From: Pseudomonadota bacterium
GTDB lineage: Bacteria; Pseudomonadota; Gammaproteobacteria; Burkholderiales; Thiobacillaceae
Direction: 5' to 3'
NCBI GenBank assembly: GCA_030684775.1
Contig: JAUXXW010000107.1
Span: forward strand, 1 to 35,191
Length of the DNA: 35,191 bases
Position 1 is the first letter of the stretch. Every line of letters starts with the position of its first letter. The notes under the pieces were generated by a model. The model was not told where the DNA came from. It saw only the letters and a program-made list of their open reading frames with translations, and ran no database searches. Shown here piece by piece: positions 10,765 to 26,942 of this stretch. A program made the position numbers and the translations under genes.

Positions 10765-11047
10765 TGCGCGGGATCGGGTCTCGGAAACAGGCGGTCAGCG
10801 GTTTTTCGGAGGGGGGCGCAACGTCGGCACTTGGCGCGAGCGGGCGGTAGCTGTTACGCGATGACAGCGTCAAGCCGCATGGCAAACCATTCGCGTTGTC
10901 AGATCCCTGTCGGGGGCAATCACTTTTACAAGCAAGAATGCCCCGTTTCCCGGCGCCAGGAGAGGGCTCGTCCCTAATCCGCCGCCGTCCGTGAGTTAAA
11001 GTCGCGCGCTTGTGCCAGTCGGCATCAGAACGCAAACCAGACCCCTC
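10765..11047. other. Intergenic region before the restriction island
   Basis: This 283-bp stretch holds no gene I can support and no palindromic repeat of the families seen elsewhere. It should contain the terminator of the epimerase gene and the promoter of hsdM, but no convincing -35/-10 pair or hairpin with a T-run was found. It is the left boundary of the type I restriction-modification island. No flanking tRNA or attachment-like repeat is visible. Confidence 0.6.
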
Positions 11048-13489
11048 ATGGCCATCAAGAAATCCGATCTTTATTCCTCCCTCTGGGCCTCCTGCGACGA
11101 GTTGCGCGGGGGCATGGACGCCAGCCAGTACAAGGACTACGTCCTGTTCATGCTGTTCATCAAGTACATCAGCGACAAGTACGGCGACAGCGACGACTTC
11201 GCGCCACCGGTGACCATCCCGCCAGGCGCCGCTTTCAAGGACATGATCGCCCTCAAGGGCAAGCCCGACATCGGCGACAGGATCAACACCCAGATCATCG
11301 CGCCGCTGGTCGAGGCCAATGCCCGGCTGGCGAAAAGCGACTTTCCCGACTTCAACGACCCCAACAAGCTTGGCGAAGGCAAGGACATGGTGGAGAAACT
11401 CTCCAACCTGGTCGGCATCTTCCAGAAGCCCGAGCTGGACTTCTCGCAGAACCGCGCCGAGCACGACGACATCCTCGGCGACGCCTATGAATACCTGATG
11501 CGCCACTTCGCCAGCGAATCGGGCAAGTCCAAGGGCCAGTTCTACACCCCGTCAGAAGTCAGCCGCATCATCGCCAAGGTCATCGGTATTGCGCCGGCCA
11601 ACACCACCGCGCGCACCACCGCCTATGACCCGACCTGCGGATCGGGTTCGCTGCTGCTCAAGGTGGCCGCCGAGGCGGGCAAGCACATCACGCTCGAAGG
11701 GCAGGAAAAGGACGTGACCACCGCCGGTCTGGCCCGCATGAACATGATCCTGCACGACTTCCCGACCGCCAACATCCTCTCCGGCAACACCCTGGCCGCG
11801 CCCAAGTTCAAGGATGGTGAAGGCTTACGCAGCTACGACTACGTCGTCGCCAATCCACCGTTTTCCGACAAGACCTGGAGCACCGGCCTCACCCCCTCCA
11901 ATGACCCTTACCAGCGCTTCGCCTGGGGCGAGCCGCCGGCCAAGCAGGGCGACTACGCCTACCTGCTGCACATCATCCGCAGCCTCAAGGGCACCGGCAA
12001 AGCCGCCTGCATCCTGCCGCATGGGGTGCTGTTCCGGGGCAATGCCGAGGCGGTCATCCGCCGGCAACTGGTGAAATCCGGCATCCTCAAGGGCATCATC
12101 GGCCTGCCCGCCAACCTGTTCTACGGCACCGGCATCCCCGCCTGCATCCTGGTGCTCGACAAAGAGAACGCTCAGGCACGCAAGGGCGTGTTCATGGTCG
12201 ATGCCAGCAAGGGCTACATCAAGGACGGCAACAAGAACCGCCTGCGCGAGCAGGACCTCCACCGCATCGTCGACACCTTCAGCAAACAGACCGACACCCC
12301 GCGCTACGCCCGCATGGTGCCGTTCGCCGAGATTGCCGACGCGAAGAACGACTACAACCTCAACCTGCCGCGCTACATCGACAGTACCGAACCGGAAGAC
12401 TTGCAGGACATCGACGGCCACCTGCGCGGCGGCATCCCCGAGCGTGACCTCGACGCCCTGGGCGACTACTGGCAGGTGTTGCCCGGCGTGCGCGCCGCGC
12501 TTTTCTCCCCTCGCCCTCTGGGAGAGGGGCCGGGGGTGAGGGAACGCCCCGGCTACGCCCACCTCAAGCTGCCGCTGCCCGAGGTCAAGCCCGCCATCTT
12601 CAGCCACCCCGAATTCACCGCCTTCAACCAGACAGCCAGCCAACGCTTCACCGACTGGCGCGCCGCCGTCACGCCCCAGCTCACCGGCTTCGCCAAAGAC
12701 GGCCACCCCAAGGCGCTGATCGAGTCCATCGCCGAGGCACTGCTCGCCACCTTCAAGCCCGCGCCGCTGCTCGACGCCTACGACATCTACCAGCACCTGA
12801 TGGACTACTGGGCCGAGACGATGCAGGACGACGCCTACCTGATCGCTCTAGACGGCTGGGTCGCCAGGCCGGCCCGCATCGTCGAAACCGACAAGAAGGG
12901 GAAAGCCAAAGGCTGGGCCTGTGACCTGATCCCGAAGTCGCTCATCGTCGCCCGCTACTTCATCTGCGAGCAGGCCGCCATTGAAGCGAGACAGGCCGAA
13001 CTGGAAGCCGCCGGCGCCAGCCTCGCCGAACTGGAAGAAGAACACAGCGGCGAAGACGCCGCCTTCGCCGGCTTCGACAGCATCACCGCCGCCGCCGTGA
13101 AAGACCGCATCCGTGAGATCGGCAAAGACCCGGAGGGCGCCGACGAGCTGAAAGTGCTCAAACAGTGGCTGGGGTTCAGCGAGCAAATCACCGCGCTGAA
13201 AAAGCACATCAAGACCGCCGAAGCCGCGCTGGACACGCTGGCCTACGAGAAATATCCCAAGCTGACCGAAGCCGAGATCAAGGCCCTGGTGCTGGACGAC
13301 AAATGGATGGCGCGGCTGCAAACCGCCGTGCAGGGTGAACTGGATCGCGTCTCGCAGACCCTCACCGGCCGCATCCGCGAACTGGCCGAACGCTACGCCA
13401 CGCCGCTGCCGCAGCTCACCGACGAGGTGGTGGCGCTGGCCGCCCGAGTCGAGGAACACCTGAAAAGCATGGGGGCGACATGGAATTGA
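11048..13489 (+). CDS. hsdM: Type I restriction-modification system, methyltransferase subunit HsdM
   Basis: The 813-residue protein is an N6-adenine methyltransferase. It has the HsdM N-terminal helical domain (about 1–150), SAM-binding motif I (DPTCGSGSLL, 194–203), catalytic motif IV NPPF (Asn269), and a long helical C-terminal region with coiled-coil character (about 640–813). With HsdS it methylates the target site; with HsdR it restricts unmodified DNA. The start MAIKKSDLYSSLWAS is typical, so ATG 11048 is chosen over 11012. A repeat-derived stretch interrupts it at about residues 486–500. The last about 58 codons are duplicated at 14490. The 3' end overlaps the next gene by 10 bp. Confidence 0.95.
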   Translation: MAIKKSDLYSSLWASCDELRGGMDASQYKDYVLFMLFIKYISDKYGDSDDFAPPVTIPPGAAFKDMIALKGKPDIGDRINTQIIAPLVEANARLAKSDFPDFNDPNKLGEGKDMVEKLSNLVGIFQKPELDFSQNRAEHDDILGDAYEYLMRHFASESGKSKGQFYTPSEVSRIIAKVIGIAPANTTARTTAYDPTCGSGSLLLKVAAEAGKHITLEGQEKDVTTAGLARMNMILHDFPTANILSGNTLAAPKFKDGEGLRSYDYVVANPPFSDKTWSTGLTPSNDPYQRFAWGEPPAKQGDYAYLLHIIRSLKGTGKAACILPHGVLFRGNAEAVIRRQLVKSGILKGIIGLPANLFYGTGIPACILVLDKENAQARKGVFMVDASKGYIKDGNKNRLREQDLHRIVDTFSKQTDTPRYARMVPFAEIADAKNDYNLNLPRYIDSTEPEDLQDIDGHLRGGIPERDLDALGDYWQVLPGVRAALFSPRPLGEGPGVRERPGYAHLKLPLPEVKPAIFSHPEFTAFNQTASQRFTDWRAAVTPQLTGFAKDGHPKALIESIAEALLATFKPAPLLDAYDIYQHLMDYWAETMQDDAYLIALDGWVARPARIVETDKKGKAKGWACDLIPKSLIVARYFICEQAAIEARQAELEAAGASLAELEEEHSGEDAAFAGFDSITAAAVKDRIREIGKDPEGADELKVLKQWLGFSEQITALKKHIKTAEAALDTLAYEKYPKLTEAEIKALVLDDKWMARLQTAVQGELDRVSQTLTGRIRELAERYATPLPQLTDEVVALAARVEEHLKSMGATWN
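12505..12543. repeat. Short repeat inserted in frame within hsdM
   Basis: CTCCCCTCGCCCTCTGGGAG followed by AGGGGCCGGGGGTGAGGG is a GC-rich imperfect palindrome of a kind common between bacterial genes, where it often translates as SPRPLGEGPGVRE. Here it lies inside hsdM and keeps the frame, adding about 13 residues between ALF and RPGY. The flanking protein reads like an ordinary HsdM loop, so insertion into a surface loop is likely. Confidence 0.75.
13307..13483 (+). repeat. Left copy of the duplicated hsdM 3' end
   Basis: This 177-bp stretch, the last coding part of hsdM, matches 14490–14666 with roughly 80–85% identity over its length. It includes a long perfectly matching core around CTCACCGGCCGCATCCGCGA. 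The two copies are direct repeats that frame the DUF1016 gene. Confidence 0.9.
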
Positions 13490-14493
13490 CCCACACCGAC
13501 GGCTACCTGCAACTGCTGGAACAGATTTCAGATGCCTATACTCAGGGCCGGGTGCGGGCGGTGCAGGCTGTTAACGGCCCGCTGATCGAGACCTACTGGC
13601 AGGTCGGACGGCATATCGTTGAATACGAGCAGGCCGGCAGCCTCCGTGCCGAATATGGCAAGGCGCTCATCAACAACCTGGCCGCCGATCTTGGGCTACG
13701 CCACGGCAAGGGCTTTAGCCGCAGCAATCTGGTGTACATGCGGCTGCTCTACCAGAGATACCCAATAAGTCAGAAGCCTTCTCACCAATTGAGCTGGTCG
13801 CACTATGTCGAGCTGCTCAAGCTCGACGATGAACTGGAGCGCGGCTTCTACGAAAAGCAGGCCATTGCGGAACGCTGGTCGGTACCTGAACTCAAGCGCC
13901 AGAAAGCGTCGTCGTTATTCCTGCGTCTCGCCGCCAGCAAGGACAAGGTGGGCATCCTGCAACTGGCCGCGCAGGGGCAAATCGTCGAACAGCCCGCCGA
14001 CCTGTTGCGCGAACCCTATGTCTTCGAATTCCTGAAAATTCCCGAGCCGTATCAGATTTCGGAAACCCAGCTCGAAACCGTGCTCTGCGACCACCTTCAG
14101 CCCTTCCTGCTGGAGCTGGGCAAGGGCTTCACCTTTGTCGGCCGACAATACCGGGTGACGATCAACAACAGCCATTACAAGGTCGATCTGGTTTTCTATC
14201 ACCGTATCCTGCGTTGCTTCGTGCTCATCGACTTGAAGCTGGGCGATGTGCAGCACCACGACATCGGCCAGATGAACCTCTATCTCGGCTACTTCGCCAA
14301 CGAGGAAAACGGCGAAGGAGACAGCCCGCCCATCGGCATCATCTTGAGCCGCCACAAGGACGAGTTGCTGGTCGAATACGCCACCTACGGCATGAACAGC
14401 CAGCTCTTCGTGCAGAAATACCAGCTCTACCTACCCGACCGCGAAGCCCTGCGCCGCGAGCTGGAACTCAGCCTGCGCGGGGTGGCGCCATGA
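13480..14493 (+). CDS. DUF1016/YhcG-family PD-(D/E)XK nuclease domain protein
   Basis: The 337-residue protein has the DUF1016 layout. An N-terminal helical domain (IETYWQVGRHIVEYEQ, about 28–43; GKGFSRSNLVYMRLLYQRYP, about 86–105) is followed by a C-terminal PD-(D/E)XK-like nuclease fold. The nuclease core is visible as YKVDLVFYH (Asp236) and LIDLKLG (Asp251, Lys253), with Asp in place of the more common Glu. Such proteins are recurrent passengers in type I restriction loci, with proposed nuclease roles. The start overlaps the hsdM end by 10 bp and the stop overlaps the next small frame (ATGA), so it is inside the operon. Confidence 0.9.
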   Translation: MELTHTDGYLQLLEQISDAYTQGRVRAVQAVNGPLIETYWQVGRHIVEYEQAGSLRAEYGKALINNLAADLGLRHGKGFSRSNLVYMRLLYQRYPISQKPSHQLSWSHYVELLKLDDELERGFYEKQAIAERWSVPELKRQKASSLFLRLAASKDKVGILQLAAQGQIVEQPADLLREPYVFEFLKIPEPYQISETQLETVLCDHLQPFLLELGKGFTFVGRQYRVTINNSHYKVDLVFYHRILRCFVLIDLKLGDVQHHDIGQMNLYLGYFANEENGEGDSPPIGIILSRHKDELLVEYATYGMNSQLFVQKYQLYLPDREALRRELELSLRGVAP

Positions 14494-14669
14494 GCCGGCT
14501 GCAAACCACCGTGCGGGGCGAACTGGGCCACGTCTCGCAAACCCTCACCGGCCGCATCCGCGAACTGGCCGAACGCTACGCCACGCCACTGCCGCAACTT
14601 GAGCTTGAGGTGGCGGCGCTCGGCGCACGGGTGGTGGAGCACCTCACGCGGATGGGGTTTCAATCATGA
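14490..14669 (+). CDS. Stand-alone duplicate of the HsdM C-terminal tail
   Basis: This 59-residue frame starts on an ATGA overlap with the DUF1016 gene. Its product repeats the C-terminus of the HsdM encoded just upstream: both contain VSQTLTGRIRELAERYATPL and end in a helix with the pattern EHLxxMG. It is either a leftover of the event that placed the nuclease gene here, or an expressed mini-subunit able to compete for contacts made by the HsdM tail. Substitutions are spread along it but the frame is kept, which mildly favours selection. Confidence 0.6.
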   Translation: MSRLQTTVRGELGHVSQTLTGRIRELAERYATPLPQLELEVAALGARVVEHLTRMGFQS

Positions 14670-14676
14670 GGGCACC

Positions 14677-14772
14677 TCGAAAAACCCCTAATTTGTCGTT
14701 CCCGCGAATGCGGGAACCCAGTGAAATCAACACACTGGATTCCCGCATTCGCGGGAATGACGGGTTTTTCGA
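14677..14772. repeat. Palindromic intergenic repeat with core TTCCCGCGAATGCGGGAA
   Basis: Outer arms TCGAAAAACCC and GGGTTTTTCGA and inner arms around GTCGTTCCCGCGAATGCGG and its complement make a nested inverted repeat of 96 bp. The core resembles the ATTCCC-N8-GGGAAT repeats frequent in beta- and gammaproteobacteria. It lies between the HsdM tail duplicate and the KilA-N gene and may insulate them. A frame reading through it (about 14666–14872) is a repeat translation, not a gene. Confidence 0.9.
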
Positions 14773-14868
14773 TGCGCCCATGAGTGATATCGAATCCAAT
14801 TATGGCGAATTCGCCGCAGTTAAAACCCTTGAATTCGAGGGAATGAAAAAGCAAAGAGGAGCGAATCC

Positions 14869-15618
14869 ATGAACAAGCCCAGGAAATCTGTCATCGAAGT
14901 CCAAGGCATGGATATCTCGGTCCTCACCAAATCCGACGCGGATTTCATCTCGCTGACGGATATCGCCCGCTATCGGAACTCGCAAGAGCCTTTTTCCATC
15001 ATAAACAACTGGATGCGCAGCCGAAGCACTATTGAATTCCTCGGGCTCTGGGAGAAATTGAGCAATCCAGATTTCAAACCTCTCGAATTCGAGAGGTTTA
15101 GAAATGAGGCCGGGAGCAACTATTTTGTCCTCTCGCCACAACGCTGGATTGAAGCCACACAGGCGGTTGGTATCACTTCCAAGTCGGGGCGCTACGGCGG
15201 AACCTACGCGCATCGCGACATTGCTTTCGAGTTCGCATCCTGGATATCTTCCGAATTCAAGCTCTACCTGATCAAGGAATTCGACCGCCTCAAGGACGAC
15301 GAAAACCGCCGCCTCTCGCAAGCCTGGAACCTCAATCGCACCCTGTCCAAACTCAACTACCGCATCCATACCGATGCCATCCGCGAGCACTTGATTCCGC
15401 CGGAGATCACCCCCGCCCAGGCCGCCATTACCTACGCCAGCGAGGCCGACCTGCTCAACGTCGCCCTGTTCGGCCAGACCGCCAGACAGTGGCGCGATGC
15501 CAACCCGGCGCAAGGCGAACGGCTCAAGCGCCTCAACCAGATCGCCATTCGCCAGATGCGCACGCTCACCGCCGCCCCGGTCCGCACGCTACCGGGCACC
15601 AAGGATGAACAGCCGTGA
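14869..15618 (+). CDS. KilA-N domain protein
   Basis: The 249-residue product begins with a KilA-N DNA-binding domain (about 1–120): ISLTDIARYRNSQEPFSII, NWMRSRSTIEFLGLWE, and the closing YGGTYAHRDIAFEFASWISS. The C-terminal half is helical (NRTLSKLNYRIHTDAIREHL) with a late segment ALFGQTARQWRD. KilA-N proteins are typical of phages and mobile islands, and also occur as accessory genes in type I restriction loci; a DNA-binding or regulatory role is likely. A clear AGAGGA ribosome site precedes the ATG. The first half is visibly richer in A+T than its neighbours, suggesting separate acquisition. Confidence 0.88.
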   Translation: MNKPRKSVIEVQGMDISVLTKSDADFISLTDIARYRNSQEPFSIINNWMRSRSTIEFLGLWEKLSNPDFKPLEFERFRNEAGSNYFVLSPQRWIEATQAVGITSKSGRYGGTYAHRDIAFEFASWISSEFKLYLIKEFDRLKDDENRRLSQAWNLNRTLSKLNYRIHTDAIREHLIPPEITPAQAAITYASEADLLNVALFGQTARQWRDANPAQGERLKRLNQIAIRQMRTLTAAPVRTLPGTKDEQP

Positions 15619-15821
15619 ACGATTACCCCGAGCTCCTGAACTCCACGCACGCGCTCGCTCGCGAGTTGCAAGGTCTGCAAGCCATGCGCCGCGCCACCAC
15701 CGGTCACTATGTCAACAGTAGCCGTAGGTTGGGCAAAGCGCAGCGTGCCCAACAACCCGTCGCCATGTTGGGCACGCTGCGCTTTGCCCAACCTACGTTT
15801 CTACGGCTGGATTTAGGTTAA
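15615..15821 (+). pseudogene. Broken small gene fused to a Fic start and a palindromic repeat
   Basis: A GTG start overlapping the KilA-N stop opens a frame whose first about 23 residues (MNDYPELLNSTHALARELQG...) look like a genuine gene start, probably of a small protein often found in restriction operons (tentative recollection). The frame then switches to MRRATTGHYV, the start of the Fic gene next door, and runs into the palindrome at 15724, ending at 15821. The 5' end of one gene and a second copy of the first about 12 Fic codons are thus joined to a repeat. A functional product is unlikely. Confidence 0.6.
15724..15796. repeat. 73-bp palindromic repeat, GCGCAGCG variant
   Basis: This copy of the GTAGGTTGGGC family has GCGCAGCG in the left arm and the complementary CGCTGCGC in the right, whereas the copies at 9–313 and 8031 have GCGAAGCG/CGCTTCGC. 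It is followed by the tail GTTTCTACGGCTGGATTTAGG, a shortened form of the tail after 8103. It separates two copies of the start of the Fic gene. Confidence 0.93.
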
Positions 15822-15834
15822 AGGATCGTCCGCC

Positions 15835-16302
15835 ATGCGCCGCGCCACCACCGGTCACGATGTCAGCAGCCTCGCCGGCGGAGAAACCGTCCGGGCGTTC
15901 GTGCCTGTTCCCTTGCCGCCCCAGCCCGCGCTGGAAATGCTCGGAAGCCGGCAAGACGCGCTGGAAAAGGCGACGCTGGCGCTGGGGCGTCTGGACAGCA
16001 TTTCCCTGCTGCTCCCCGATCCGCAGCTTTTTCTGTATGCCTACGTGCGGCGCGAGGCGGTGTTGTCGTCGCAGATCGAAGGCAACCGCCTACGCGTGCT
16101 CGACAGCCTCCGCCAACGCCCCCTGTGCAGCCTGGGGCAGATCGCCCAACGCACCGGCATCAGCTTCCCAACCGCCACCAAAGCCATGAAAACCCTGCAA
16201 GAAATGGGCATCGCCCGCGAACTCACCGGCCAGCGCCGCAACCGCGTGTTTGTCTATGACGCTTATTTGAACATCCTCAGTGAAGGCGGCGAAGCGCTAT
16301 GA
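15835..16302 (+). CDS. Fic-family protein lacking the catalytic Fic core
   Basis: This 155-residue frame joins the two ends of a much longer Fic protein. Residues 1–83 are the Fic N-terminal domain (AGGETVRAFVPVPLPPQP; YAYVRREAVLSSQIEG), including the S-x3-E-G inhibitory-helix motif (Ser78–Gly83). Residues 84–155 are the C-terminal winged helix (LGQIAQRTGISFPTATKAMK, then RNRVFVYDAYLNIL). The AMP-transferring core with HPFxxGNGR, usually about 180 residues between them, is missing, yet the frame is intact. It cannot be an AMP transferase; it may be a relic, a DNA-binding regulator or an inhibitor fragment. It lies just before hsdS. Confidence 0.85.
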   Translation: MRRATTGHDVSSLAGGETVRAFVPVPLPPQPALEMLGSRQDALEKATLALGRLDSISLLLPDPQLFLYAYVRREAVLSSQIEGNRLRVLDSLRQRPLCSLGQIAQRTGISFPTATKAMKTLQEMGIARELTGQRRNRVFVYDAYLNILSEGGEAL

Positions 16303-16393
16303 ACAGGCGGCGCAACGCATCGAACGTGCCCCGGTTGCGGCAAAGGCAGGCCGCAGCCCTCCCGTCAGCGCCGAGTTTTGCGAAGGGATGGGT

Positions 16394-17674
16394 ATGGAAG
16401 TGAGGCCGGGGTACAAGGTGACGGAGATTGGCATTTTCCCGGATGAGTGGGAAATCAAGCCGCTAAAGAGCATTTCGCCAAGGCAGAGCGTTGGCTTGGT
16501 AATCAATCCTTCGACCTATTTTGATAGAGCCGGCACGATACCCTTGCTGGTAGGGTCAAACGTAGCCGAGAACTTGATTGACACGACCAGAGCAAGTCGG
16601 ATCACAGCGCAAAGTAACGAGATGATTTCCGCCTCGCGGTTGGCAGCGGGTGACCTCGTAACTGTTCGAGTAGGTGAGCCAGGTGTTACGGCAGTGGTTC
16701 CGCCAGAACTCGATGGCTGCAACTGTGCATCAATGATGATTGTTCGGCGCCATTCGTCGTTCGATTCGCATTGGCTGTGCGCAGTCATGAATTCGCGGCT
16801 CGGTCGGCGGCAAGTCGAGCATGTTCAGTACGGAACTGCTCAGAAGCAGTTCAACATAAGCGACGCCGTTGATTTTCAATTTGCTGTTCCGTCGCTCCCC
16901 GAACAACGCGCCATCGCGGCGGCGTTGAGTGATGTGGATGCGCTGCTGGGCGGGCTGGAGCGGCTCATCGCCAAGAAGCGCGACCTCAAACAGGCCGCCA
17001 TGCAGCAACTCCTCACCGGCCAAACCCGCCTCCCCGGCTTCAGCGGGGAGTGGGAGGTGAAGCGGCTGGGGGATTTGTTCAAGTTCAGCGGCGGCTTCTC
17101 GGCCTCACGCGACCAGCTTTCGACCGAAGGCCATTGCTATCTGCATTACGGCGACATTCATGGGTCTGCAAAGACCACCATCGATACAAAGGCCGACGAT
17201 CAAGACATCCCAAAGTTGGATATACCGCTCAAGCGAGTCTCGCCTGATTCACTCCTGGCTGATGGCGATGTGGTTTTCGTTGACGCCTCGGAGGATGACG
17301 AGGGTACGAGCAAGCACGTTGTCATCGTGAACAAGGGCGGCCTGCCATTCATCTCAGGACTGCACACGATTGTCGCCAAGGCAAGAACAGCCGAAATGGC
17401 ACACGAATATCTACGGTACTGCTTCCAGACTGCGTTAATACGCCAGCAGTTCATGTTTTATGCGGTCGGCACCAAGGTATCCGGCATCAGCAAGACCAAC
17501 ATTGTGAAGTTGACTTTGCCTGTCCCGTCAGTCCCTGAACAAACCGCCATCGCCGCCGTCCTCTCCGACATGGACGCCGAACTGGCCACCCTGGAAGCCC
17601 GCCGCGACAAGACCCGCGCCCTCAAGCAGGCGATGATGCAGGAACTATTAACCGGAAAGACGAGGCTGGTATGA
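16394..17674 (+). CDS. hsdS: Type I restriction-modification system, specificity subunit HsdS
   Basis: The 426-residue product has two target-recognition domains (about 1–165 and 215–380), each followed by a conserved helix: PEQRAIAAALSDVDALL...KKRDLKQAAMQQLLTG and PEQTAIAAVLSDMDAEL...RALKQAMMQELLTG. The two recognition domains set the bipartite DNA target and the repeated helices set its spacing. ATG 16394 is preferred: it has GAAGGG upstream and gives the typical MEVRPGYKVTEIG start; ATG 16388 is in frame two codons earlier. Both recognition domains have lower G+C than the helices, as expected for domains swapped by recombination. The target sequence cannot be predicted. Confidence 0.95.
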   Translation: MEVRPGYKVTEIGIFPDEWEIKPLKSISPRQSVGLVINPSTYFDRAGTIPLLVGSNVAENLIDTTRASRITAQSNEMISASRLAAGDLVTVRVGEPGVTAVVPPELDGCNCASMMIVRRHSSFDSHWLCAVMNSRLGRRQVEHVQYGTAQKQFNISDAVDFQFAVPSLPEQRAIAAALSDVDALLGGLERLIAKKRDLKQAAMQQLLTGQTRLPGFSGEWEVKRLGDLFKFSGGFSASRDQLSTEGHCYLHYGDIHGSAKTTIDTKADDQDIPKLDIPLKRVSPDSLLADGDVVFVDASEDDEGTSKHVVIVNKGGLPFISGLHTIVAKARTAEMAHEYLRYCFQTALIRQQFMFYAVGTKVSGISKTNIVKLTLPVPSVPEQTAIAAVLSDMDAELATLEARRDKTRALKQAMMQELLTGKTRLV

Positions 17675-18870
17675 CGATGATCCGCACGCTACGCATTCAG
17701 GGCTTCAAGTCCATCCACTCGGAAAGCATCGAGTTGGGAAGAGTCAATTGTTTCATCGGCGCCAACGGGGTGGGCAAGAGCAACGTGCTCGAAGCACTCG
17801 GGGTGCTGGGGGCGGCGGCCAACGGGGTGGTGGATGACGAGAGCCTGCTCCGTCGTGGTGTCAGGGCAGGCTTGCCCCGGCTTTACAAAAGCTCTTTTGC
17901 CTCTGAACGGACGCCTGTCCATATCGGCGTGGAGGTGGAGGGTGAGGCGGGAGATGCCTACCGGGTTTCCCTGCTCAACCCGCTCGACTCGCCCGAGCCG
18001 GCCTGGTCTTATAAAACCGAGGTGCTGACGGACGGCCAGCAGGAAGTGGTGTCCGATGGCGAGCGCAACAAGAAAAATCTCAACCCCCAGTCCGGCCTGG
18101 CCGCTTTGAAGCTGGTCGATCTGGAGCCAGACAATCCCGCCGCGCAGCTCATGCAGCGCTTGCAGGAATACGCCATCTATTGCCCCAACACGCCGACCTT
18201 GCGCGGAATCGCGCCGGATATGCAGTCGCGTGCGCCGGTCGGGCTGAATGGCGGGCAACTGGCCGAGGGCTTCGCGGCCTTGAGCAAGTATCTGGGCAAT
18301 AACGACGACGACCCGACGGCGGGAGAAAAGCTGGACGAGGTGCTGGCCTTGATCGACTGGGTGGCCGACATTCAGACCACCAGTCACGGCGCCGCGCTGC
18401 TTTCCACCAAGGTGCCGCGTACCAAGTGGATGCTGAAATTCACTGATCGGTACATGGTGAAAAGTCGCAACGAGTTGACGGCTTACGATGCCAGCGAAGG
18501 TGCGCTGTATGTGATTTTCGCCGCCCTGCTGTGTCTGCTACCGCAAGCGCCCAGGCTGTTCGCCATTGATAACCTGGATCAGGCCCTGAATCCCCGGCTG
18601 CTGACACGACTCACCGCCAATCTGTCCGGCTGGCTGCGCCATAACGGTGAGGATCGGCAGTTGCTGTTTACCGCGCACAATCCCGCCGTGCTGGATGGCC
18701 TGGATTTGTCCGACCCCGAGGTACGTCTGTTTGCCGTGGAACGCAACAGCAATGGCCTGACCTGCGTTCGTCGCCTGAGTTTGACCCCCGAACTGACCGC
18801 CCTGAATCAGCAATACCCCCTATCCCGTCTCTGGTTGATGGGCCATCTGGGGGCAGTGCCCAATGTCTGA
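17671..18870 (+). CDS. ABC-type AAA ATPase (AAA_15/AAA_21 type), partner of a TOPRIM-like protein
   Basis: The 399-residue protein has an SMC/RecF-like ATPase head: a start resembling RecF/OLD (IRTLRIQGFKSI), Walker A GANGVGKS (Gly30–Ser37), a signature-like DASEGALYVIFAALL (about 275–289), Walker B LFAIDNLDQALNP (Asp300) and a TAHNPAVLD switch region near 330. After the Walker B Asp the usual catalytic Glu is Asn301. The insert between the motifs is helical. It overlaps hsdS (ATGA) and the next gene (8 bp). In OLD, RloAB and PARIS systems a similar ATPase senses an intruder and controls a TOPRIM nuclease; that role is inferred from the pairing here. Confidence 0.85.
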   Translation: MTMIRTLRIQGFKSIHSESIELGRVNCFIGANGVGKSNVLEALGVLGAAANGVVDDESLLRRGVRAGLPRLYKSSFASERTPVHIGVEVEGEAGDAYRVSLLNPLDSPEPAWSYKTEVLTDGQQEVVSDGERNKKNLNPQSGLAALKLVDLEPDNPAAQLMQRLQEYAIYCPNTPTLRGIAPDMQSRAPVGLNGGQLAEGFAALSKYLGNNDDDPTAGEKLDEVLALIDWVADIQTTSHGAALLSTKVPRTKWMLKFTDRYMVKSRNELTAYDASEGALYVIFAALLCLLPQAPRLFAIDNLDQALNPRLLTRLTANLSGWLRHNGEDRQLLFTAHNPAVLDGLDLSDPEVRLFAVERNSNGLTCVRRLSLTPELTALNQQYPLSRLWLMGHLGAVPNV

Positions 18871-19561
18871 GTTGCGCATCGCCCTGGTCGCCGAGGGTGC
18901 GACGGACTACGAAATCATCAACGCGGCGCTGCGTGCGGTGCTGCCACAGAGTTTTGTCATGACGCTGTTGCATCCCGAAGCAACGCGTCCAGCCATGGGG
19001 AGTGGTTGGGGCGGGGTATTGAAGTGGTGCCTTGCCGCGAACCAGCGCCATGTTGGCCCCCTTGATACCGACCCCACGCTCGCCGGTTTCGATTTGCTCA
19101 TCGTTCATCTGGATGTCGATGTCGCCCACAAGAAATATGATCAATGTGGAGATGGAGTTGCAGCCATGGCTCAGGTGCGGCAGTGGCAGGTATTGCCTTG
19201 TGGGCAGCCATGTCCACCGGTGGCCAATACCTGTAACCAGTTGGAGTCGGTGCTGAATAGTTGGCTGGGTCGTGCCACCCCAGGCGAGAAAACCCTGTAT
19301 TGCTTGCCCGCCCAGTCGTCAGGCACTTGGCTTGCAGCGGCTGTTTTACCCTCCGGGCATCAACGGTTGGCAGGAGCAGAGTGCAACGTCAACCTGGAAT
19401 CGCAGTTGGCCCAGTTGCCAAAGAGTGAGCGCATCAGAAAGAGCGTTGCGGAATATCGCCGATACACCCCGCGCATTACTGCGGAATGGGCGGTTGTAAA
19501 ACAGATTTGCTCCCAGGCCGCTGTTTTTGAGCAAAGGGTGCTGGCGAAAGTGGAATTGTGA
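18863..19561 (+). CDS. TOPRIM-like nuclease-type protein paired with the upstream ATPase
   Basis: This 232-residue protein opens with IALVAEGATDYEIINAAL, the first TOPRIM motif (Glu11), and has LLIVHLDVDVA with the DxD pair Asp84/Asp86. A Cys-containing segment (LPCGQPCPPVANTCNQLES) and a charged C-terminus (PKSERIRKSVAEYRRYTPR) follow. TOPRIM folds with Glu and DxD bind Mg2+ and cut nucleic acid in OLD nucleases, RloB- and AriB-type effectors. The fold is assigned from these motifs only; I do not recognise a named family with confidence. It starts inside the ATPase gene, so 1:1 production is expected. G+C is a little lower than in the neighbours. Confidence 0.7.
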   Translation: MSELRIALVAEGATDYEIINAALRAVLPQSFVMTLLHPEATRPAMGSGWGGVLKWCLAANQRHVGPLDTDPTLAGFDLLIVHLDVDVAHKKYDQCGDGVAAMAQVRQWQVLPCGQPCPPVANTCNQLESVLNSWLGRATPGEKTLYCLPAQSSGTWLAAAVLPSGHQRLAGAECNVNLESQLAQLPKSERIRKSVAEYRRYTPRITAEWAVVKQICSQAAVFEQRVLAKVEL

Positions 19562-20085
19562 TGGGCGCCATGCCTGTATTTCCACCCTCGCTGACGCTGG
19601 CCAAACTGCGCCTGCCGTATGGCTCGGTGCCGGCCAACCCCTTGCTGGCCGAGCCGCTGCACCTGACCAAGTACATCGAGCGCATGGGCACCGGCACCCG
19701 CGACATGATTCGCCGCTGTCGCGAGGCGGGGTTGGTGGAGCCGGAGTTCGCGGTATCGGACGGGTTTGTCACGACTGTCTGGCGTAAGACGGGGGAAGTG
19801 GAGGCGGCACAGCCAGAGTCACAGCCAGAGTCACAGCCAGAGTCGCTGGAACGACGGGTGCTGGCGTTGTTGGCCAGCGGCCCCCTGTCCAAGGCGGCGA
19901 TTTCCGGCGCATTGGGGCAGAAAGAGATTTCCGGCCATCTGAATCAGGTCATCCGCGTGTTGCTGGCCGACCAGACGCTGGAATACACCGTGCCCGACAA
20001 GCCCAAGAGTCGGTTTCAGCAATACCGATTGACCGATAAGGGCCGGACGCTACTGGCGACGCTAGGGATGGAAAAGCGATCATGA
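19561..20085 (+). CDS. C-terminal fragment of an AlbA_2/RecG-like ATP-binding regulator
   Basis: The 174-residue product matches only the end of AlbA_2/HATPase_c_4 proteins: PANPLLAEPLHLTKYIERMG and TGTRDMIRRCREAGLVEPEF normally follow an N-terminal AlbA_2 domain and ATPase part that are absent. A QPES triplet repeat and a winged-helix tail (IPDKPKS-like, FQQYRLTDKGRTLLA) follow. The frame nevertheless begins on an ATGA overlap with the TOPRIM gene and ends on an ATGA overlap with the full-length homologue at 20082, so it is placed to be translated. The truncation may be a fusion that left a coupled tail domain. The tail is similar to the last about 45 residues of the next protein. Confidence 0.75.
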   Translation: MGAMPVFPPSLTLAKLRLPYGSVPANPLLAEPLHLTKYIERMGTGTRDMIRRCREAGLVEPEFAVSDGFVTTVWRKTGEVEAAQPESQPESQPESLERRVLALLASGPLSKAAISGALGQKEISGHLNQVIRVLLADQTLEYTVPDKPKSRFQQYRLTDKGRTLLATLGMEKRS

Positions 20086-21557
20086 AAGAAGACCAGAACC
20101 TGGAGTGGAAGGAATCCTGGCGCGACGACTATCTGCGCTGGGTTTGCGGCTTTGCCAATGCCGAGGGCGGGGTGCTGGTGATCGGGCGGGATGACCAGGG
20201 GCGCGCTGTCGGGGTGGCCAACGCGGGCCGCCTGCTGGAGGAAATTCCGAACAAGGTGCGCGATGTGCTGGGCATCATGGTCGAGGTGAATCTGCGCCAC
20301 GAAGACAACAAGGAACTGCTGGAAATTCGCGTCGAACCCTACCCCAGCCCGGTGAGCTACAAGGGCGAGTACCACTACCGCAGCGGCAGCACCAAACAGG
20401 AATTGAAAGGCGCGGCGCTGTCGCGTTTTTTGCTCAAGAAGCAGGGCCTGCATTGGGACGGCGTGCCGATGCCACGTCTGACGCTGAACGACTGCAACCC
20501 CGCGGCCCTGCAATGGTTTCGGGACAAGGCCGCGAAGAGCGGGCGCGTGGATGAGCAGGTGCTGGCCGATGGCGACACCGCGCTGCTGGCCAGCCTGCAA
20601 CTGGAAGACGGCGAGCACTTGAAGCGGGCCACCGCCTTGCTGTTTGGCAAGGAGCCGGAACGGTTTGTGCCGGGGGCGTTCATCAAGCTGGGCTTTTTCA
20701 TCACCGACGATGACCTGCGCTACCAGGACGAAATTCATGGCGATTTGTTTTCGCAGGTGGAAAAGACGCTGGACACCCTGCGCGCCAAGTACCTCAAGGC
20801 CTACATCAGCTACGAAGGCTTGCAGCGGCTGGAAACTTTTTTGTTCCCCCTGCCCGCCTTGCGCGAGGCACTGCTCAATGCGGTGATGCATAAGGATTAC
20901 AGCAGCGGCATTCCGATTCAGATCAGCGTCTATGCGCATCAAATCGTGCTGTGGAACGCGGGCCAGTTGCCCGAACGCTGGACGCTGGAGAATTTGCTGG
21001 GCAAGCATCCGTCCCATCCCTTCAACCCCTTGCTGGCGTCGGCGTTTTTCCGCGCGGGGTATGTCGAGTCCTGGGGGCGCGGCATCGAGAAGATGCGCCG
21101 GGAATGTGCGAACCACGACGCGCCCGCGCCGCTTTTCGACCCCAGCATGTCCGGGCTGATGCTGACCTTCAAGGCCAATCCGGCGCATCTGGCAGCGGCC
21201 TTGGGCGAGGAATCGGCGCGTGCGTTGTTGGGCTTGCCGGGTGAAGGCGCTACCGCACAGCCAGAGTCACAGTCGGCGACAGGGGAAGTCACGGGGGAAG
21301 TCACGGGGGAAGTCACAGGGGAAGTCACAAGGTTGGTGCTGGTCTGCCGCGACAGCATGAGCCGCAAGTCCTTGCAGGATGCGCTATCGCTGAAGGGCGA
21401 GGAAAACTTCCGGATTCTTTACCTCGTGCCGGCGCTGAAAGCGGACTTGCTTGAAATGACCATCCCCGACAAACCCAAGAGCAGCCGGCAGAAATACAGG
21501 TTGACCGCCGAGGGCAGGAAATTACAGGCAACGCTTATGAAAGCGGGAAAAACATGA
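20082..21557 (+). CDS. AlbA_2 (Schlafen-like) domain ATP-binding protein, RecG-like C-terminus
   Basis: The 491-residue protein begins in the AlbA_2/Schlafen AAA_4 domain (about 1–110: LEWKESWRDDYLRWVCGFAN, AEGGVLVIGRDDQG), continues with the HATPase_c_4 region (LREALLNAVMHKDYSSGIPI; GRGIEKMRRECANH) and ends in a winged-helix tail. Between them is a four-fold GEVT repeat (residues 401–416). The N-terminus is a little shorter than usual: many relatives have about 10–20 more residues before LEWKES. Such proteins are usually annotated as putative transcriptional regulators or RecG-like helicases, without a helicase core here. A regulatory or nuclease-like role in the island is possible. Confidence 0.8.
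   Translation: MKEDQNLEWKESWRDDYLRWVCGFANAEGGVLVIGRDDQGRAVGVANAGRLLEEIPNKVRDVLGIMVEVNLRHEDNKELLEIRVEPYPSPVSYKGEYHYRSGSTKQELKGAALSRFLLKKQGLHWDGVPMPRLTLNDCNPAALQWFRDKAAKSGRVDEQVLADGDTALLASLQLEDGEHLKRATALLFGKEPERFVPGAFIKLGFFITDDDLRYQDEIHGDLFSQVEKTLDTLRAKYLKAYISYEGLQRLETFLFPLPALREALLNAVMHKDYSSGIPIQISVYAHQIVLWNAGQLPERWTLENLLGKHPSHPFNPLLASAFFRAGYVESWGRGIEKMRRECANHDAPAPLFDPSMSGLMLTFKANPAHLAAALGEESARALLGLPGEGATAQPESQSATGEVTGEVTGEVTGEVTRLVLVCRDSMSRKSLQDALSLKGEENFRILYLVPALKADLLEMTIPDKPKSSRQKYRLTAEGRKLQATLMKAGKT
21282..21329 (+). repeat. Four tandem 12-bp units encoding GEVT
   Basis: GGGGAAGTCACG is repeated four times, the last two copies ending in A. The unit is a multiple of three, so slippage would change the length of a linker before the winged-helix tail without shifting the frame. 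Confidence 0.97.
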
Positions 21558-21875
21558 CCATCCTCGGCCAGTGAGCGTAGTCCGGATGGCGCCCAGGCGA
21601 TGCCGGTCGGCAATCCCACGAGCGTTCCCGGGCGGAATCCGGGGACGTGGCATGGATTGGTGGCCCTATCCATCCCGGATTCCGTCCGCGAACGGTCGGC
21701 GCGGGTTCAACCGTCGGCGGTGCGGGCTCCATCCGGGCTACGCTCGCTCCGAACGCAAGACGCAGAACCGCGCCAGTACCGCCTGGTAGGTCACGCGAGG
21801 GGTTATAGGAATTTATGCGCCAACAAGCGAATAATGGCTTATAAATACGAATAATTTAGTCAAAACGGGGTTGTC
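21558..21875. repeat. Intergenic region with a degenerate palindromic element (21578–21741)
   Basis: GTAGTCCGGATGGCGCCCAG at 21578 and GCTCCATCCGGGCTAC ending at 21741 are the ends of an about 164-bp imperfect inverted repeat; inner pairs such as GGAATCCGGG and CCCGGATTCC also match. It resembles the GTAGCCCGGATG intergenic repeats of many proteobacteria. The remaining bases up to 21875 are strikingly A+T-rich (TTATAAATACGAATAATT around 21839–21856), so the gene at 21876 probably has its own promoter and hsdR may be transcribed separately from hsdM/hsdS. No gene is seen here. Confidence 0.75.
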
Positions 21876-23090
21876 ATGGACAGGATAAGAAATCCATTTT
21901 CACCTGGAGCGGGTTCTCCTCCGCCCGAATTGGCGGGCCGCGACGCCGTCATGGAGCAAGCCAAGGTGCTGTTTGGCCGTGTCCTGGCCAGGCGACCCGA
22001 GAAGAGCTTGCTCATGACGGGCTTGCGCGGCGTGGGCAAGACGGTGCTGCTTAATGAAATGGAGCGGATGGCGCAGGCGCTCGGATACCGAACCATCCTG
22101 GTCGAGGCCCATGAGAACAAGTCGCTGGCGGTCCTGCTGGCGCCACACTTGCGCCGCCTGTTATTTGAACTGGACCGTCTTGCCGGGGCGGGCAACAAGG
22201 TGCGTCGTGGTATTGCCGTCCTCAAGAGTTTTATCGGCGGCATCCGGGTCAATGTGGGCGATGTGGAATTCGGCCTGGACATCGAGCCGGAACGGGGTGC
22301 GGCCGATAGCGGTGACCTGGAGGTCGATCTGCCCAACCTGTTCATGTCGGTGGCCGAGGCCGCGGAGGAGCGCGGGGCGGCCGTGGCTATCCTGATCGAC
22401 GAAATCCAGTATTTCAACACGACCGAGTTGAGCGCCTTGATCATGGCCATGCACAAGATGCAGCAGCGCCAACTGCCGTTGGTCCTGGTCGGCGCGGGCC
22501 TGCCGATCCTGCCCGGTCTGGCCGGCGAGTCAAAATCTTATGCCGAGCGGCTGTTCAGTTTTCCTGATGTCGGGCCTTTGCCCGAACCCGATACCGACAA
22601 GGCGCTGCGGGACCCCATTGAAGAGGCAGGTGAAGCCATCGACGCGGATGCGTTACAGGCGATTTTTCGACTTACCAGGGGCTACCCCTATTTCCTGCAA
22701 GAGTGGGGCTATCAGGCTTGGAATCATGCGGCGGCATCACCGATCAGCCTGCAAATCGTGAATGAGACTACGGATCAGGTGACGCGCCGGCTCGACGAAA
22801 ATTTTTTCCGAGTGCGTTTCGATCGCCTGACCCCGAGGGAAAAACAGTACTTGCGGGCCATGGCGGAACTTGGCGCCGGGCCGCATCGATCATCGGATAT
22901 CGCCGATAAGCTGGGGGCAAAGATCACCACCCTGGGTCCGGTCAGGGCCAGCTTGATCAAGAAGGGGATGGTGTATAGCCCGTCCCATGGCGATATGGCC
23001 TTTACCGTGCCGTTGTTCGACGAGTTCATGCGCCGGGTCATGCCCGTGTTTGCACCGGGCGCCCGCGTGTCGGGAGGCGTCCATGACTGA
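21876..23090 (+). CDS. AAA ATPase of the archaeal-ATPase/Orc-like type, coupled to hsdR
   Basis: The 404-residue protein has an AAA+ core with Walker A GLRGVGKT (residues 49–56) and Walker [10 protein letters not shown] (about 169–177), and a C-terminal winged helix ([20 protein letters not shown], about 340–360). The start [20 protein letters not shown] is typical of a widespread bacterial family of unknown role. Its 3' end overlaps the hsdR start by 8 bp, so the two are translationally coupled. It could load, regulate or gate the restriction subunit, or be an independent module. It follows an A+T-rich region likely to hold a promoter. Confidence 0.85.
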
Positions 23091-26000
23091 ACAACCCCGC
23101 TCCGAACGCACCACCCAGAACCGCGTCATCGACCTGTTCACCGACCCGGCGCGGCCCGATTGGCTGGGCTACCGCTACCTCGGCGAGTGGAGCAAGCGGG
23201 AGAAAAACCGTGCCATCGAAACGGCGCTGCTGCGCGATAACCTGATGGCGCGTGGCTATTCCGCCGAGCACATTAACGCCGCCCTGACCAAGCTGGAGAC
23301 GGCGGCCGATGCGACCGGCGTCACGCTCTATCAGGCGAATATGCGCACTTACCAACTGCTGCGCTACTGCGTGCCGGTGCAGATCGCCGCCGGGAGGGCG
23401 CATGAGACGGTGCATCTGATTGACTGGGAGAACCCCGAAAAGAACGACTTTGCGCTGGCCGAGGAGGTGACGCTGAAAGGTGGCGGGGTTGGGTCAAATC
23501 AGCGCCGGCCGGACATCGTGCTCTATCTCAACGGCATCGCCATCGCGGTGATCGAACTCAAGCGCGGCTCGGTGGAGGTGGCTGACGGGGTGCGCCAGCT
23601 CATCACCAATCAGGAAGAAATTTTCAACAAAAGCTTCTTCACGACGGTGCAGTTGGTGCTGGCGGGCAGCGATTCGCAGGGGCTGCTCTACGGCACAACC
23701 GGTACGCCGGAACAGTTTTTTGTGGCGTGGAAGGATGAGGCGCTTGCAGAGGCGGGGGCGATACCCGCCGCCGGGGCGTTGCTCGACCGGCCGCTGGCGC
23801 GGTTGTGCGAGAAGAGCACGCTGCTCGATTTGATCCGCAACTTCATCATCTTCGACGCCGGCCAGAAGAAGGTGCCGCGCCCGCATCAATACGCCGGGGT
23901 GAAGGCGGCGCAGACGCGCATCGCCAAACGCGAGGGCGGCGTGATCTGGCATACCCAGGGCAGCGGCAAGAGCATCCTGATGGTGCTGATCGCCAAGTGG
24001 CTGCTGGAGCACGACCCGGAGGCGCGCATCCTGGTCATCACCGACCGCGACGAACTGGACAAACAGATCGTCGGCGTGATGCGCAACGCCGGGGTGATCG
24101 GCGAGAACTCACCTTCGCCACGCATTACCTCGCGGGCGGACTTCGTACAGAAACTGGGAGCGACCACGCCGCGCCTGCTTTGCGCGCTAATCCACAAGTT
24201 CGACGTAGCCGACCTGCAAGGCCCGCCTCCGAAGGTAGCTGGACGCTTCTATGTGTTCGTGGACGAGTGCCACCGCACCCAGGGCGGCGACATGAACCGG
24301 CAGATGAAGCGCTGGCTGGAAGGCGCGATCTTCATCGGTTTCACCGGCACGCCGCTGTTGCGCCGCGACAAGCTGATGACGCGGGACGTGTTCGGCACCT
24401 ACATCCACACCTACAAGTTTCACCAGGCGGTGGCCGACAAGGTGGTGCTCGACCTGAAGTACGAGGCGCGCGACGTGCCGGAGCGGCTGACCTCGCAGAA
24501 GAAAATCGACGAATGGTTCGAGCAGAAGACCAAGAACCTGAACAACTTCCAGAAAGCCTTGGTGCGCAAGCACTGGGCGACGATGGAAGAGCTGATGAGC
24601 GCGGCCGGACGCAAGCGCGAGATCATTGCCGACATCATCGGCGACTTCGCCCTCAAGCCGCGCCTGAACAACGACCGGGGCACGGCCATCCTGGTGGCGG
24701 CCTCGATCTACGACGCCTGCCATTACTTCCGGCTGTTCCAGCACACCGGCTTCGGCTCCTGCTGCGGGATCATCACGTCCTTCGAGCCGAACGCCAACGT
24801 GATTTCCAAAGAACCGCCCAACAGCGACGAGCGCTACAAGTTCGACACCTACACCCAGCATGTCCTCAAGAACGGCCAGACCACGAAGCAGTATGAAGAC
24901 GAGGCCAAGCGCCGCTTCATCGAGGAGCCGGCGAACCTTAAGCTGTTGATCGTGGTGAGCAAGCTCTTGACCGGCTTCGACGCGCCGAGCTGCACCTACA
25001 TCTACCTCGACAACGAACTGCGCGACCACAACCTGTTCCAGGCCATCTGCCGCACCAACCGACTCGATGGCGATGACAAGGACTACGGCCACATCGTTGA
25101 CTACAACAAGCTCTTCGGCGACGTGCAGCAGGCCATCGCGGTGTATAGCTCCGACGAACTGGACATTGACCAGGGCAACGGCGGCGACAACAACGTGCGG
25201 CTGAAGAACTGGCTGGAAGAAGGCAAAAAGCAGCTCGACGACACCCGCCAGGCGCTGGTCTATCTGTGCGAGCCGGTGCCGTTGCCGCGCGAGGTGGAGC
25301 AGTTCCTGCGCTATTTCTGTGGCGATGCGGCGAATGCGAACGCCTTGAACGAAACCGAGGCGCTGCGCATCACCTTCTACAAGGCGGTGGCGATCTTCGC
25401 GCGCGCCTACGCCGACCTCGCCCAGGATTTGACCGAGGCCGGCTATTCCGACGCCGAGGCGGCGGCACTGCAAAAGGAGGTCGTGTTCTACGCCGAGATG
25501 CGGGCGGCGATCAAAAAGCACGCCGGCGAGGAACTGGACATCAAGCCTTTCGAGGCCGACATGCGCCATCTCATCAACACCTACATCCAGGCCGACCCGG
25601 CGGCGGAATTGGGTGAAATGGGCGCGCTATCGCTGACCGACCTCATCATCAAGACCGGCATCCACGACGCCATCGCCAGGAAGCTCAACGAGAAGGGCAA
25701 GCTGTCGAAGAACGCCATCGCGGAGGGGATCATCAACAACGTCCGCAAGACCATCATTCGTGACCAGCTCACCGACCCGAGGTTCTACGCACAGATGTCG
25801 GCGCTGCTCGACGACCTCATCAAACAGAGCCGGGCGGATACGGCGGCGTATGAGGAATTTCTGCGCCAAGCCGAGGACTTGGTGAAGCGGCTGGCGGCGA
25901 AGCAACCGGAGGCGGGCATTCCGGCGCTGCTGCACGGCAACAGCGAAGCCACCGTGATTTACAACAATCTGCCCGACATCCTCGCGGCGGCGGCGGACGG

Positions 26001-26226
26001 CGCCACTTTGACGGCGGCGGAACCAAGCGCCGAATACGCGGACGCGCGTCTGACCCTGGCGCTGGAGATTGACCGAACCCTGCGCGAACGCGCGCCGGCC
26101 GGCTGGAAGGGCGATCAGGCAAGAGAGGCGCAGGTTCTGAACGCGCTATATCCCTTGCTGGGCCGAAACCGGGTAGCAACACAGGCGGTGTTTGAGCTGG
26201 TGAAGAACCAGCCGGGGTATCAGTGA
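23083..26226 (+). CDS. hsdR: Type I restriction-modification system, endonuclease/translocase subunit HsdR
   Basis: The 1,047-residue product is a full-length HsdR. The N-terminal PD-(D/E)XK nuclease shows [10 protein letters not shown] (Asp144) and AVIELKRG (Glu158, Lys160). The SF2 translocase core has Walker A HTQGSGKS (about 289–296), DECH at about 394, GFTGTPLL at about 418, [11 protein letters not shown] at about 624 and QAICRTNR at about 651. A long helical C-terminus for HsdM contact follows. It translocates and cuts unmethylated DNA. The start [19 protein letters not shown] is typical and fixes ATG 23083 within the upstream AAA gene. All catalytic motifs look intact, so restriction should be active if HsdM and HsdS assemble. 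Confidence 0.96.
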
Positions 26227-26942
26227 GCGAAACCATTCGGCTCGGCGAAGTCGAGATCGCCGTGACGCGCAAGGCGGTCAAGAACGTCCACCTCTCGGTG
26301 CATCCGCCGGCCGGCCACGTCACGCTGGTGGCGCCCACCGGCACCCGATTGGAAGTGGCCCGCGCCTACGCCATCTCCAAGCTCGGCTGGATTCGTGACC
26401 AGCAAGCGAAGCTGTTAGCCCAAGCACGCGAGACGCCGCGCCAATTTATCGAACGGGAGAGTCACACCCTTTGGGGTCGACACTATCTGCTGTCCGTAGT
26501 CGAGAAGGACGCGAAACCCGCCGTGAAGCTGGATCATCGCCGCATCACCCTCACCGTGCGCCCCGGCGGCACGCTGGCGAAGCGCGAGGAAATCATGGAG
26601 GAGTGGCATCGCGCCCTGCTGCATCAGGTCGTGCCCGCGCTGATCGAGAAATGGTCGGCGAAGCTGGGCGTAACGGTTACGCGCTACTACCTCCAGCGCA
26701 TGAAAACCAAATGGGGCGGCTGCAACCACCGGGCGGGAAACATCCGTCTGAATACCGAACTGGTCAAGAAGCCCAAGGACTTGCTGGAGTACGTCGTGGT
26801 GCACGAAATGCTGCATCTGGTCGAGCCGACGCATAGCGAGCGCTTCGTGGCGCTGCTGGCGCGGCACTATCCGACCTGGCGGGAAGCGCGCGCGGAATTG
26901 AATGCGTTGCCGTTGGCGGCGGTGGATTGGGCTGCGCGGTAA
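26223..26942 (+). CDS. YgjP/DUF45-type zinc metallopeptidase-like protein
   Basis: The 239-residue protein belongs to the YgjP-like family (DUF45, often named M48 family metallopeptidase). It has the zinc site HEMLH (His194, Glu195, His198) followed by EPTHSERF with a further likely ligand, and the conserved [17 protein letters not shown]. The GTG start lies on a GTGA overlap with hsdR. Genes of this family commonly follow hsdR in type I operons, but the substrate is unknown. It appears to be the last gene of the island. Confidence 0.9.

Follow-up and report, generated by a model that had tools for sequence, protein, structure and literature searches.

In the 35,191-nucleotide contig JAUXXW010000107.1 of a Thiobacillaceae bacterium (Pseudomonadota; assembly GCA_030684775.1), which is referred to here as the window, we analyzed two adjoining genes, A and B, that lie in a type I restriction operon directly 3' of hsdS. 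An earlier sequence-only reading of this DNA had described them as an ABC-type ATPase gene overlapping by 8 bp the gene for a 232-residue protein with TOPRIM hallmarks, and had taken the two for a separate defense module of the OLD/PARIS kind, embedded between hsdS and hsdR. The coordinates and the overlap were confirmed (Table 1). The position holds as well, but the pair is not alone in this interval, since three further genes separate B from hsdR. The gene order of the operon is hsdM, a YhcG/DUF1016 nuclease gene, a KilA-N protein gene, a Fic_N-winged-helix fragment, hsdS, A, B, a RecG-C-like fragment, an AlbA_2 gene, an AAA_16 ATPase gene, and hsdR. A and hsdS share 4 bp (ATGA, 17671-17674), and B likewise shares 4 bp with the frame that follows it, so that co-translation and co-expression of the pair with hsdS are probable. 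In our reading, the pair does not belong to the restriction enzyme itself.

Table 1. Coordinates of the A-B pair, its conserved residues, and the surrounding restriction operon in the window.
Feature	Position	Strand	Details
Gene A	17671-18870	+	399 amino acids; OLD/SMC-type ABC ATPase, PDC-M31A; PADLOC 5.4e-195, Pfam AAA_21 3.4e-21
Gene B	18863-19561	+	232 amino acids; predicted TOPRIM nuclease, PDC-M31B; PADLOC 2e-102
A stop/B start overlap, 8 bp (ATGTCTGA)	18863-18870	+	sequence
A, Walker A, residues 30-37 GANGVGKS	17758-17781	+	G30, G33, G35, K36 invariant (27/27)
A, Walker B region, residues 296-308 LFAIDNLDQALNP, Asn301 at the usual Glu place	18556-18594	+	D300, N301 invariant (27/27)
B, Glu11 in VAEGATD, after strand 1 (residues 4-9)	18893-18895	+	E11 in 26/26
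B, D15, acidic, four residues past E11	18905-18907	+	D in 21, E in 5 of 26
B, Asp84-x-Asp86 in HLDVDV, after strand 78-82 (strand 3)	19112-19120	+	both in 26/26
B, Gly154, two before a conserved Trp	19322-19324	+	G in 22, E in 3, D in 1 of 26
hsdM	11012-13489	+	PADLOC MTase_I, E=0
hsdS	16280-17674	+	Pfam Methylase_S, PADLOC Specificity_I
RecG-C-like/Fic-like_C fragment, AlbA_2 protein, AAA_16 ATPase (between B and hsdR)	19558-23090	+	Pfam
hsdR	23083-26226	+	PADLOC REase_I, E=0; TIGR00348 1e-137

The pair is a member of the listed PADLOC candidate system PDC-M31: both proteins gave their best score and a near-full-length match to its models (PDLC04570-04573), and the genes are adjacent. For A, the families next to PDC-M31A were HEC-01A (5.6e-22) and AriA of PARIS (6.6e-19), while the sole other family matched by B was HEC-01B (0.006, residues 1-27). 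B, which the earlier reading had left unplaced, can therefore be assigned to a named family, although Pfam and NCBIfam gave no usable name for it; the 26 aligned B proteins produced isolated weak Pfam matches, the best of them 0.01 in one member. A search for the name PDC-M31 in the available literature found no paper. As cited in PMC12988326 and PMC12255303, the source of the PDC systems is a guilt-by-embedding preprint (Payne et al. 2024, doi 10.1101/2024.01.29.577857).

One scan of genome contigs for B yielded 28 loci beyond the window (labelled L001 onwards), whose hosts belong to Pseudomonadota, Cyanobacteriota, Spirochaetota, and Thermodesulfobacteriota. The B alignment comprises 26 proteins including that of the window; three loci were left out of it, two because the contig ends inside B (L016, L027) and one because B is broken (L026). 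The 25 relatives that it contains share 41-98% identity with the B protein of the window. The A alignment comprises 27 proteins, without L006 (A cut) and L023 (A absent). Near-identical copies (window and L001; L024 and L029) were each counted separately. Matches to PDC-M31B were found in 2 of 369 genomes of the class (that of the window and a partial one) and in 11 of 398 genomes of the phylum (that of the window and ten others in which the match was weak and distant). A blastn search gave no match to the pair in E. coli, only one plasmid record in PLSDB matched B at 1e-5, and one scan of viral contigs with two short peptide patterns returned no phage-borne copy. A divergent pair was seen on a phage-labelled human fecal contig (L034, 4562-6537), where B matches PDLC04573 at 6e-105. 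The pair is also carried, again with an 8-bp overlap, by a conjugative plasmid of Enterobacter hormaechei (L029); there it lies beside an annotated SAVED/ThiF/Mov34 cluster (12001-20008), which resembles a CBASS system.

A lies directly upstream of B in 27 of the 28 further loci, in agreement with the expected co-occurrence of B homologues with the ATPase. The 8-bp overlap, measured from the B start nearest to the homologous start, is kept in all 27 (26 tabulated loci and L006, in which A ends at 900 and B starts at 893). The exception is L023, in which A is absent and the normal start codon of B is missing from its expected position; the contig end at the place of A carries apparent IS5-type transposase sequence. 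In L026, it is B that is broken, beside an intact A. The pairwise distances of A and B correlate strongly (Mantel r 0.89, n=24, 0/9999 permutations as high); the mean distance is 0.31 for A and 0.48 for B, A being the more conserved. A and B are separate genes in the window and in all 27 other loci that contain both, and the one-chain layout of OLD classes 1-3 was not found. Judged from these sequences, A and B travel together as one unit.

AlphaFold2 (AF2) predicted the structure of B, with the 26 aligned sequences as input, at a mean predicted local distance difference test (pLDDT) score of 92.1 and a predicted template modelling (pTM) score of 0.90. The strand and helix order in residues 4-161 of the model is b(4-9)-a-b(31-36)-a-b(78-82)-a-b(144-147)-a. 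TOPRIM domains are defined by this strand order together with a glutamate and a DxD motif, and B carries the glutamate after strand 1 and the DxD after strand 3. The hallmarks named from the sequence, Glu11 and D84/D86, proved invariant. Additionally, the spacing of E11 and D15 equals that of E398 and E402 in P2 OLD, whose D453/D455 resembles the DxD of B (PMC7049728). Sequence and model together thus mark B as a predicted small TOPRIM nuclease.

The place of B among ATPase-TOPRIM families became apparent through relatives on plasmids. Three plasmid-borne relatives of A (L030, L031, and L032; 27-31% identity) each have an adjoining B-like gene. The B-like protein of L030 matches PDC-M31B (4e-9) and HEC-01B (3.3e-5) and lies just over the Pfam cut-off of DUF4276; that of L032 lies below this cut-off, and that of L031 gave no DUF4276 match. 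In local hhalign comparisons, B was linked to the plasmid clade at 97.5%, the plasmid clade to DUF4276 at 91.4%, and DUF4276 to RloB at 95.4%; the plasmid clade reached RloB at 71.8% and DUF4276 the OLD TOPRIM domain at 46.9%, while a negative control with one family (response regulator) gave at most 1.5%. These links make a divergent arm of the DUF4276/RloB group the best placement for B, with the connection running only via intermediates. None of the 26 B proteins matched PF14103 (DUF4276) or PF13707 (RloB) at the curated cut-off. For PF14491 (DUF4435), of which only two members were found and to which AriB belongs, no match was listed among the same 26 proteins. Thus, of the relations suggested for B at the outset, those to DUF4276 and RloB hold via intermediates, with weak direct links, whereas AriB and DUF4435 were unmatched, and B is nearer to DUF4276/RloB than to AriB.

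Known systems resemble the pair to different degrees. PARIS has the same tandem of separate OLD-ABC ATPase and TOPRIM genes, but A scores far better against PDC-M31A than against AriA, and B had no AriB match at E<=1. An assignment of the pair to PARIS was rejected, as no AriB-type effector was found and AriA is not the best ATPase family. DUF4276 and RloB pairs likewise have an ABC ATPase gene 5' of a small protein with EGxTE/D; they differ in that B matches neither Pfam family and in the Walker-B residue described below. In OLD class 1 and in Gabija GajA (class 2), an ABC ATPase also controls a TOPRIM nuclease, but the two are fused in one chain (PMC10568477), whereas they are separate in PDC-M31. 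A Pfam scan of ten proteins of the window revealed no UvrD-like helicase. The RptR paper (PMC12255303) places DarTG2 and an ATPase pair in the same slot between hsdS and hsdR; by their descriptions these differ from the A-B pair, DarTG2 being a system of another type and the partner of the ATPase a putative RNA-binding protein. BREX loci likewise recruit OLD-ABC/TOPRIM dyads (PMC12839542).

A feature of the pair that we have not seen described was found in A. Foldseek matched its AF2 model (mean pLDDT 75.6) to the heads of SMC, RecN, Rad50, and PtuA, with a best E-value of 2.5e-11. In ABC ATPases, the residue after the acidic residue of Walker B is the catalytic glutamate. In A, strand 296-299 leads into D300-N301, and the glutamate is missing. 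Among 42 ATPases of the lineage, this residue is Asn in 40, Ser in 2, and Glu in none. Asn also occupies the position in L029, L030, and L031 and in all of ten more distant ATPases (L033, L143-L151), and Ser in L032 and L034; the acidic residue itself is Glu in L032 and L143. The Walker B of L034 reads VDSFDHAMHP. In contrast, the Walker-B glutamate is kept in the ATPases of DUF4276 pairs (24/24 with the motif; 25 of 30 retrieved loci scanned, with L058, L060, L062, L063, and L066 not used and L064 without the motif) and of RloB pairs (8/8 with the motif; 11 loci scanned, of which L134, L135, and L137 had no motif), the motif pattern having left the Glu position unconstrained. Among the 12 of 29 papers listed by a literature search on Walker B in OLD and Gabija systems, none mentions PDC-M31 in its title or in the opening of its abstract. 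Since Walker A, S275-E276-G277, Q165, and H336 are invariant in the A alignment (S275-E276-G277 and H336 in 27/27), nucleotide binding is probably kept. In the archaeal protein Cran1, alanine at either Walker-B glutamate left the ATPase activity without significant change (PMC12796447); loss of hydrolysis in A is therefore a prediction only.

To relate the pair to type I restriction, hsd genes were surveyed around its copies by tblastn with the Hsd proteins of the window and by PF02384, a search that divergent hsd genes could escape. Nine of the 28 loci lie in hsd operons (L001, L002, L007, L010 of Limnohabitans, L011, L012, L014, L018, and L019). These operons are of at least three kinds, and L019 has a different, EcoEI-like enzyme with the order R-S-A-B-M. 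Fourteen loci lie outside hsd operons, 13 of them with no hsd match in the retrieved flanks (for L027, upstream DNA only); in the other, L024, hsd genes are encoded on the opposite strand, some 6 kb downstream of B. The remaining five (L005, L006, L013, L016, and L023) were not classed because of short flanks or a lost A. An association of the pair with hsd genes thus holds for part of the family. On the ATPase tree, the hsd label changes 7 times, at least 4 of these changes being forced by starred branches; its clustering was not significant (102/500 shuffles as low), whereas the label 'other' was clustered (8/500). Additionally, three of the 28 pair-bearing genomes, all draft assemblies (L009, L021, and L025), gave no N6_Mtase match.

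We also inspected the 1.5 kb upstream of related hsdR genes, for which 22 loci were retrieved from 274 genomes of the class and 16 scanned (L121-L126 were left out). hsdS was found there in 6 loci and the pair in none of the 16. An AlbA_2-like gene stands just 5' of hsdR in four (L108, L109, L110, and L117), and a short piece of one in L112; the AlbA_2 gene is therefore a commoner tenant of this slot than the pair.

Because the pair occurs both in divergent hsd operons and outside them, it seems to be a portable passenger module, for which type I restriction in cis is apparently not needed. This agrees with the initial proposal that the pair is a module in its own right housed within the restriction operon. 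The accompanying suggestion that the pair is triggered when restriction is blocked is not supported, given the loci outside hsd operons and the genomes with no N6_Mtase match.

The fixed gene order, the overlap, the joint inheritance, the mobility, the TOPRIM acids, and the Glu-less Walker B are consistent with the following reading, which we consider rather probable: the pair would be a self-contained two-gene anti-phage module, PDC-M31, composed of an OLD/SMC-like ATPase and a small TOPRIM nuclease and acting by abortive defense. By analogy with known systems, A would bind ATP and dimerize or oligomerize on it, without efficient hydrolysis, and would hold B inactive. An infection cue, in the form of a phage protein binding to A or of declining ATP, would change A and thereby free or activate B, which might then use metal ions to cut tRNA or DNA and stop the infected cell. 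In PARIS, a hexamer of AriA sequesters AriB until an Ocr-like phage protein binds, whereupon the freed AriB dimerizes and cleaves tRNA-Lys (PMC12409363). In Gabija, nucleotides suppress GajA via its ATPase-like domain (PMC8136825, PMC10568477). More tentatively, PDC-M31 might form a distinct split ABC-ATPase/TOPRIM branch, in which the Glu-less ATPase serves as an ATP-binding latch on a separate TOPRIM nuclease, a two-gene and helicase-free counterpart to nucleotide sensing in Gabija. Such a latch is attractive because the Walker-B glutamate is missing.

Several observations weigh against an ATPase-TOPRIM nuclease module of this kind. The AF2 model of B shows the strands in the order typical of TOPRIM and places E and DxD as expected, but Foldseek found no PDB match for it at E<=0.001, so that no solved TOPRIM structure was matched. 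None of the 50 Foldseek entries listed for B is a TOPRIM protein by title, most being Rossmann-like dehydrogenases, and PDB sequence searches with B, by single sequence and by profile, returned nothing meaningful. The second metal site of B may be altered or incomplete in most of the PDC-M31 family, because Gly154 replaces an acidic residue that several relatives retain (by visual inspection, Glu in L030-L032 and Asp in L034). In local hhalign, the plasmid clade reached the OLD TOPRIM domain at only 3.2%, and B itself reached DUF4276 at 27% (48 columns near the C-terminus), the OLD TOPRIM domain at 35% (30 columns round strand 1), and RloB at 0.6%. Direct profile kinship of B with these three families was dropped as weak, and the chain via intermediates was retained. 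The confidence of the A model is only medium, and given Cran1, A might hydrolyze ATP despite its Asn or Ser. Finally, among 20 neighbor proteins from 13 loci scanned with Pfam, some copies have plain metabolic neighbors (L008, L009, and L017).

Other explanations share part of the evidence. One of them, possible but on the whole doubtful, is that A gauges ATP: it would bind and hardly hydrolyze the nucleotide and so keep B off, until nucleotide depletion by phage replication switches B on, as has been proposed for Gabija. The absence of the Walker-B glutamate in 42/42 ATPases and the invariance of Walker A, S275-E276-G277, and His336 in 27/27 fit this explanation, as does the inhibition of GajA by nucleoside triphosphates through its ATPase-like domain (PMC8136825); on the other hand, Asn or Ser need not abolish hydrolysis, as the Cran1 result illustrates (PMC12796447).

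We regard it as somewhat unlikely that B is a toxin and A an antitoxin-like partner, the two forming a stability module of mobile elements and no phage sensor. The pair does occur on the conjugative plasmid L029, and relatives occur on the small mobilizable plasmids L031 and L032, but the 28 loci come from genome assemblies, and a single PLSDB record matched B at 1e-5. Likewise, in L023, the sole locus without A, the usual start codon of B is gone too, yet this argument has n=1, and L026 shows the reverse case of an intact A with a broken B, which would fit the loss of a toxin equally well.

A direct PARIS-like sensor, in which A would detect a phage anti-restriction protein and release B, so that the embedding in hsd operons would provide a back-up for blocked restriction, appears unlikely. 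PARIS, which senses Ocr, has the same split ATPase/TOPRIM layout (PMC12409363, PMC12839542), and 9 of the 28 loci lie in hsd operons. Against this stand the 14 loci outside such operons, the three genomes with no N6_Mtase match, the lack of an AriB model match for B, and the absence of clear clustering of the hsd label on the ATPase tree, though 'other' is clustered. An accessory role in the type I enzyme itself, for example in modulating HsdR, is highly improbable for the pair: the 4-bp hsdS/A overlap and the position of A directly 3' of hsdS also in L001, L012, L014, and L019 would suit it, but the pair is absent from the 1.5 kb upstream of all 16 related hsdR genes scanned, copies lie outside hsd operons, and in L002, L011, L012, and L014 A is 73-78% identical to the window's while HsdR is only 41-47% identical.

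The restriction operon of the window holds further genes of note. Two more PADLOC candidates lie in it, namely the YhcG/DUF1016 nuclease (13480-14493), which is PDC-S02 (1.4e-130), and the KilA-N protein (14869-15618), which is PDC-S22 (2.7e-111). The short Fic_N and winged-helix frame at 15835-16302 had no match to the Fic core in Pfam and is possibly the remnant of a Fic gene. Downstream of B, the RecG-C/Fic-like_C fragment (19558-20085) is followed by a full AlbA_2 protein (20082-21557) with the same C-terminal domains, which suggests duplication and decay. Both frames contain repeats of 12 bp in phase with the reading frame (19808-19844 and 21279-21329), which give QPES and GEVT repeats in the proteins. 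Within hsdM, a GC-rich palindromic element resembling a repeat, CCTCTGGGAGAGGGGCCGGGGGTGAGGG (12515-12542), is present in a single copy in the window; it lies in frame and adds a stretch of the SPRPLGEGPGVRE type. The frame 3' of hsdR (26223-26942), to which no library gave a name, is presumably YgjP-like. ARAGORN reported one odd tRNA at 5354-5450 with an unassigned four-base anticodon, which is probably spurious.

Overall, pairs of an ATPase and a TOPRIM protein are already known as a general kind, and PDC-M31 is a listed candidate for which our literature search found no description; what appears to be new is the lineage-wide Asn or Ser at the place of the Walker-B glutamate. This loss suggests a concrete mechanism, in which the binding of ATP, and not its hydrolysis, would act as the switch. 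The portability of the pair separates it from the restriction enzyme of its host. In addition, through the connection to DUF4276 and RloB, results obtained on one of these systems could inform several uncharacterized ATPase-TOPRIM pairs.

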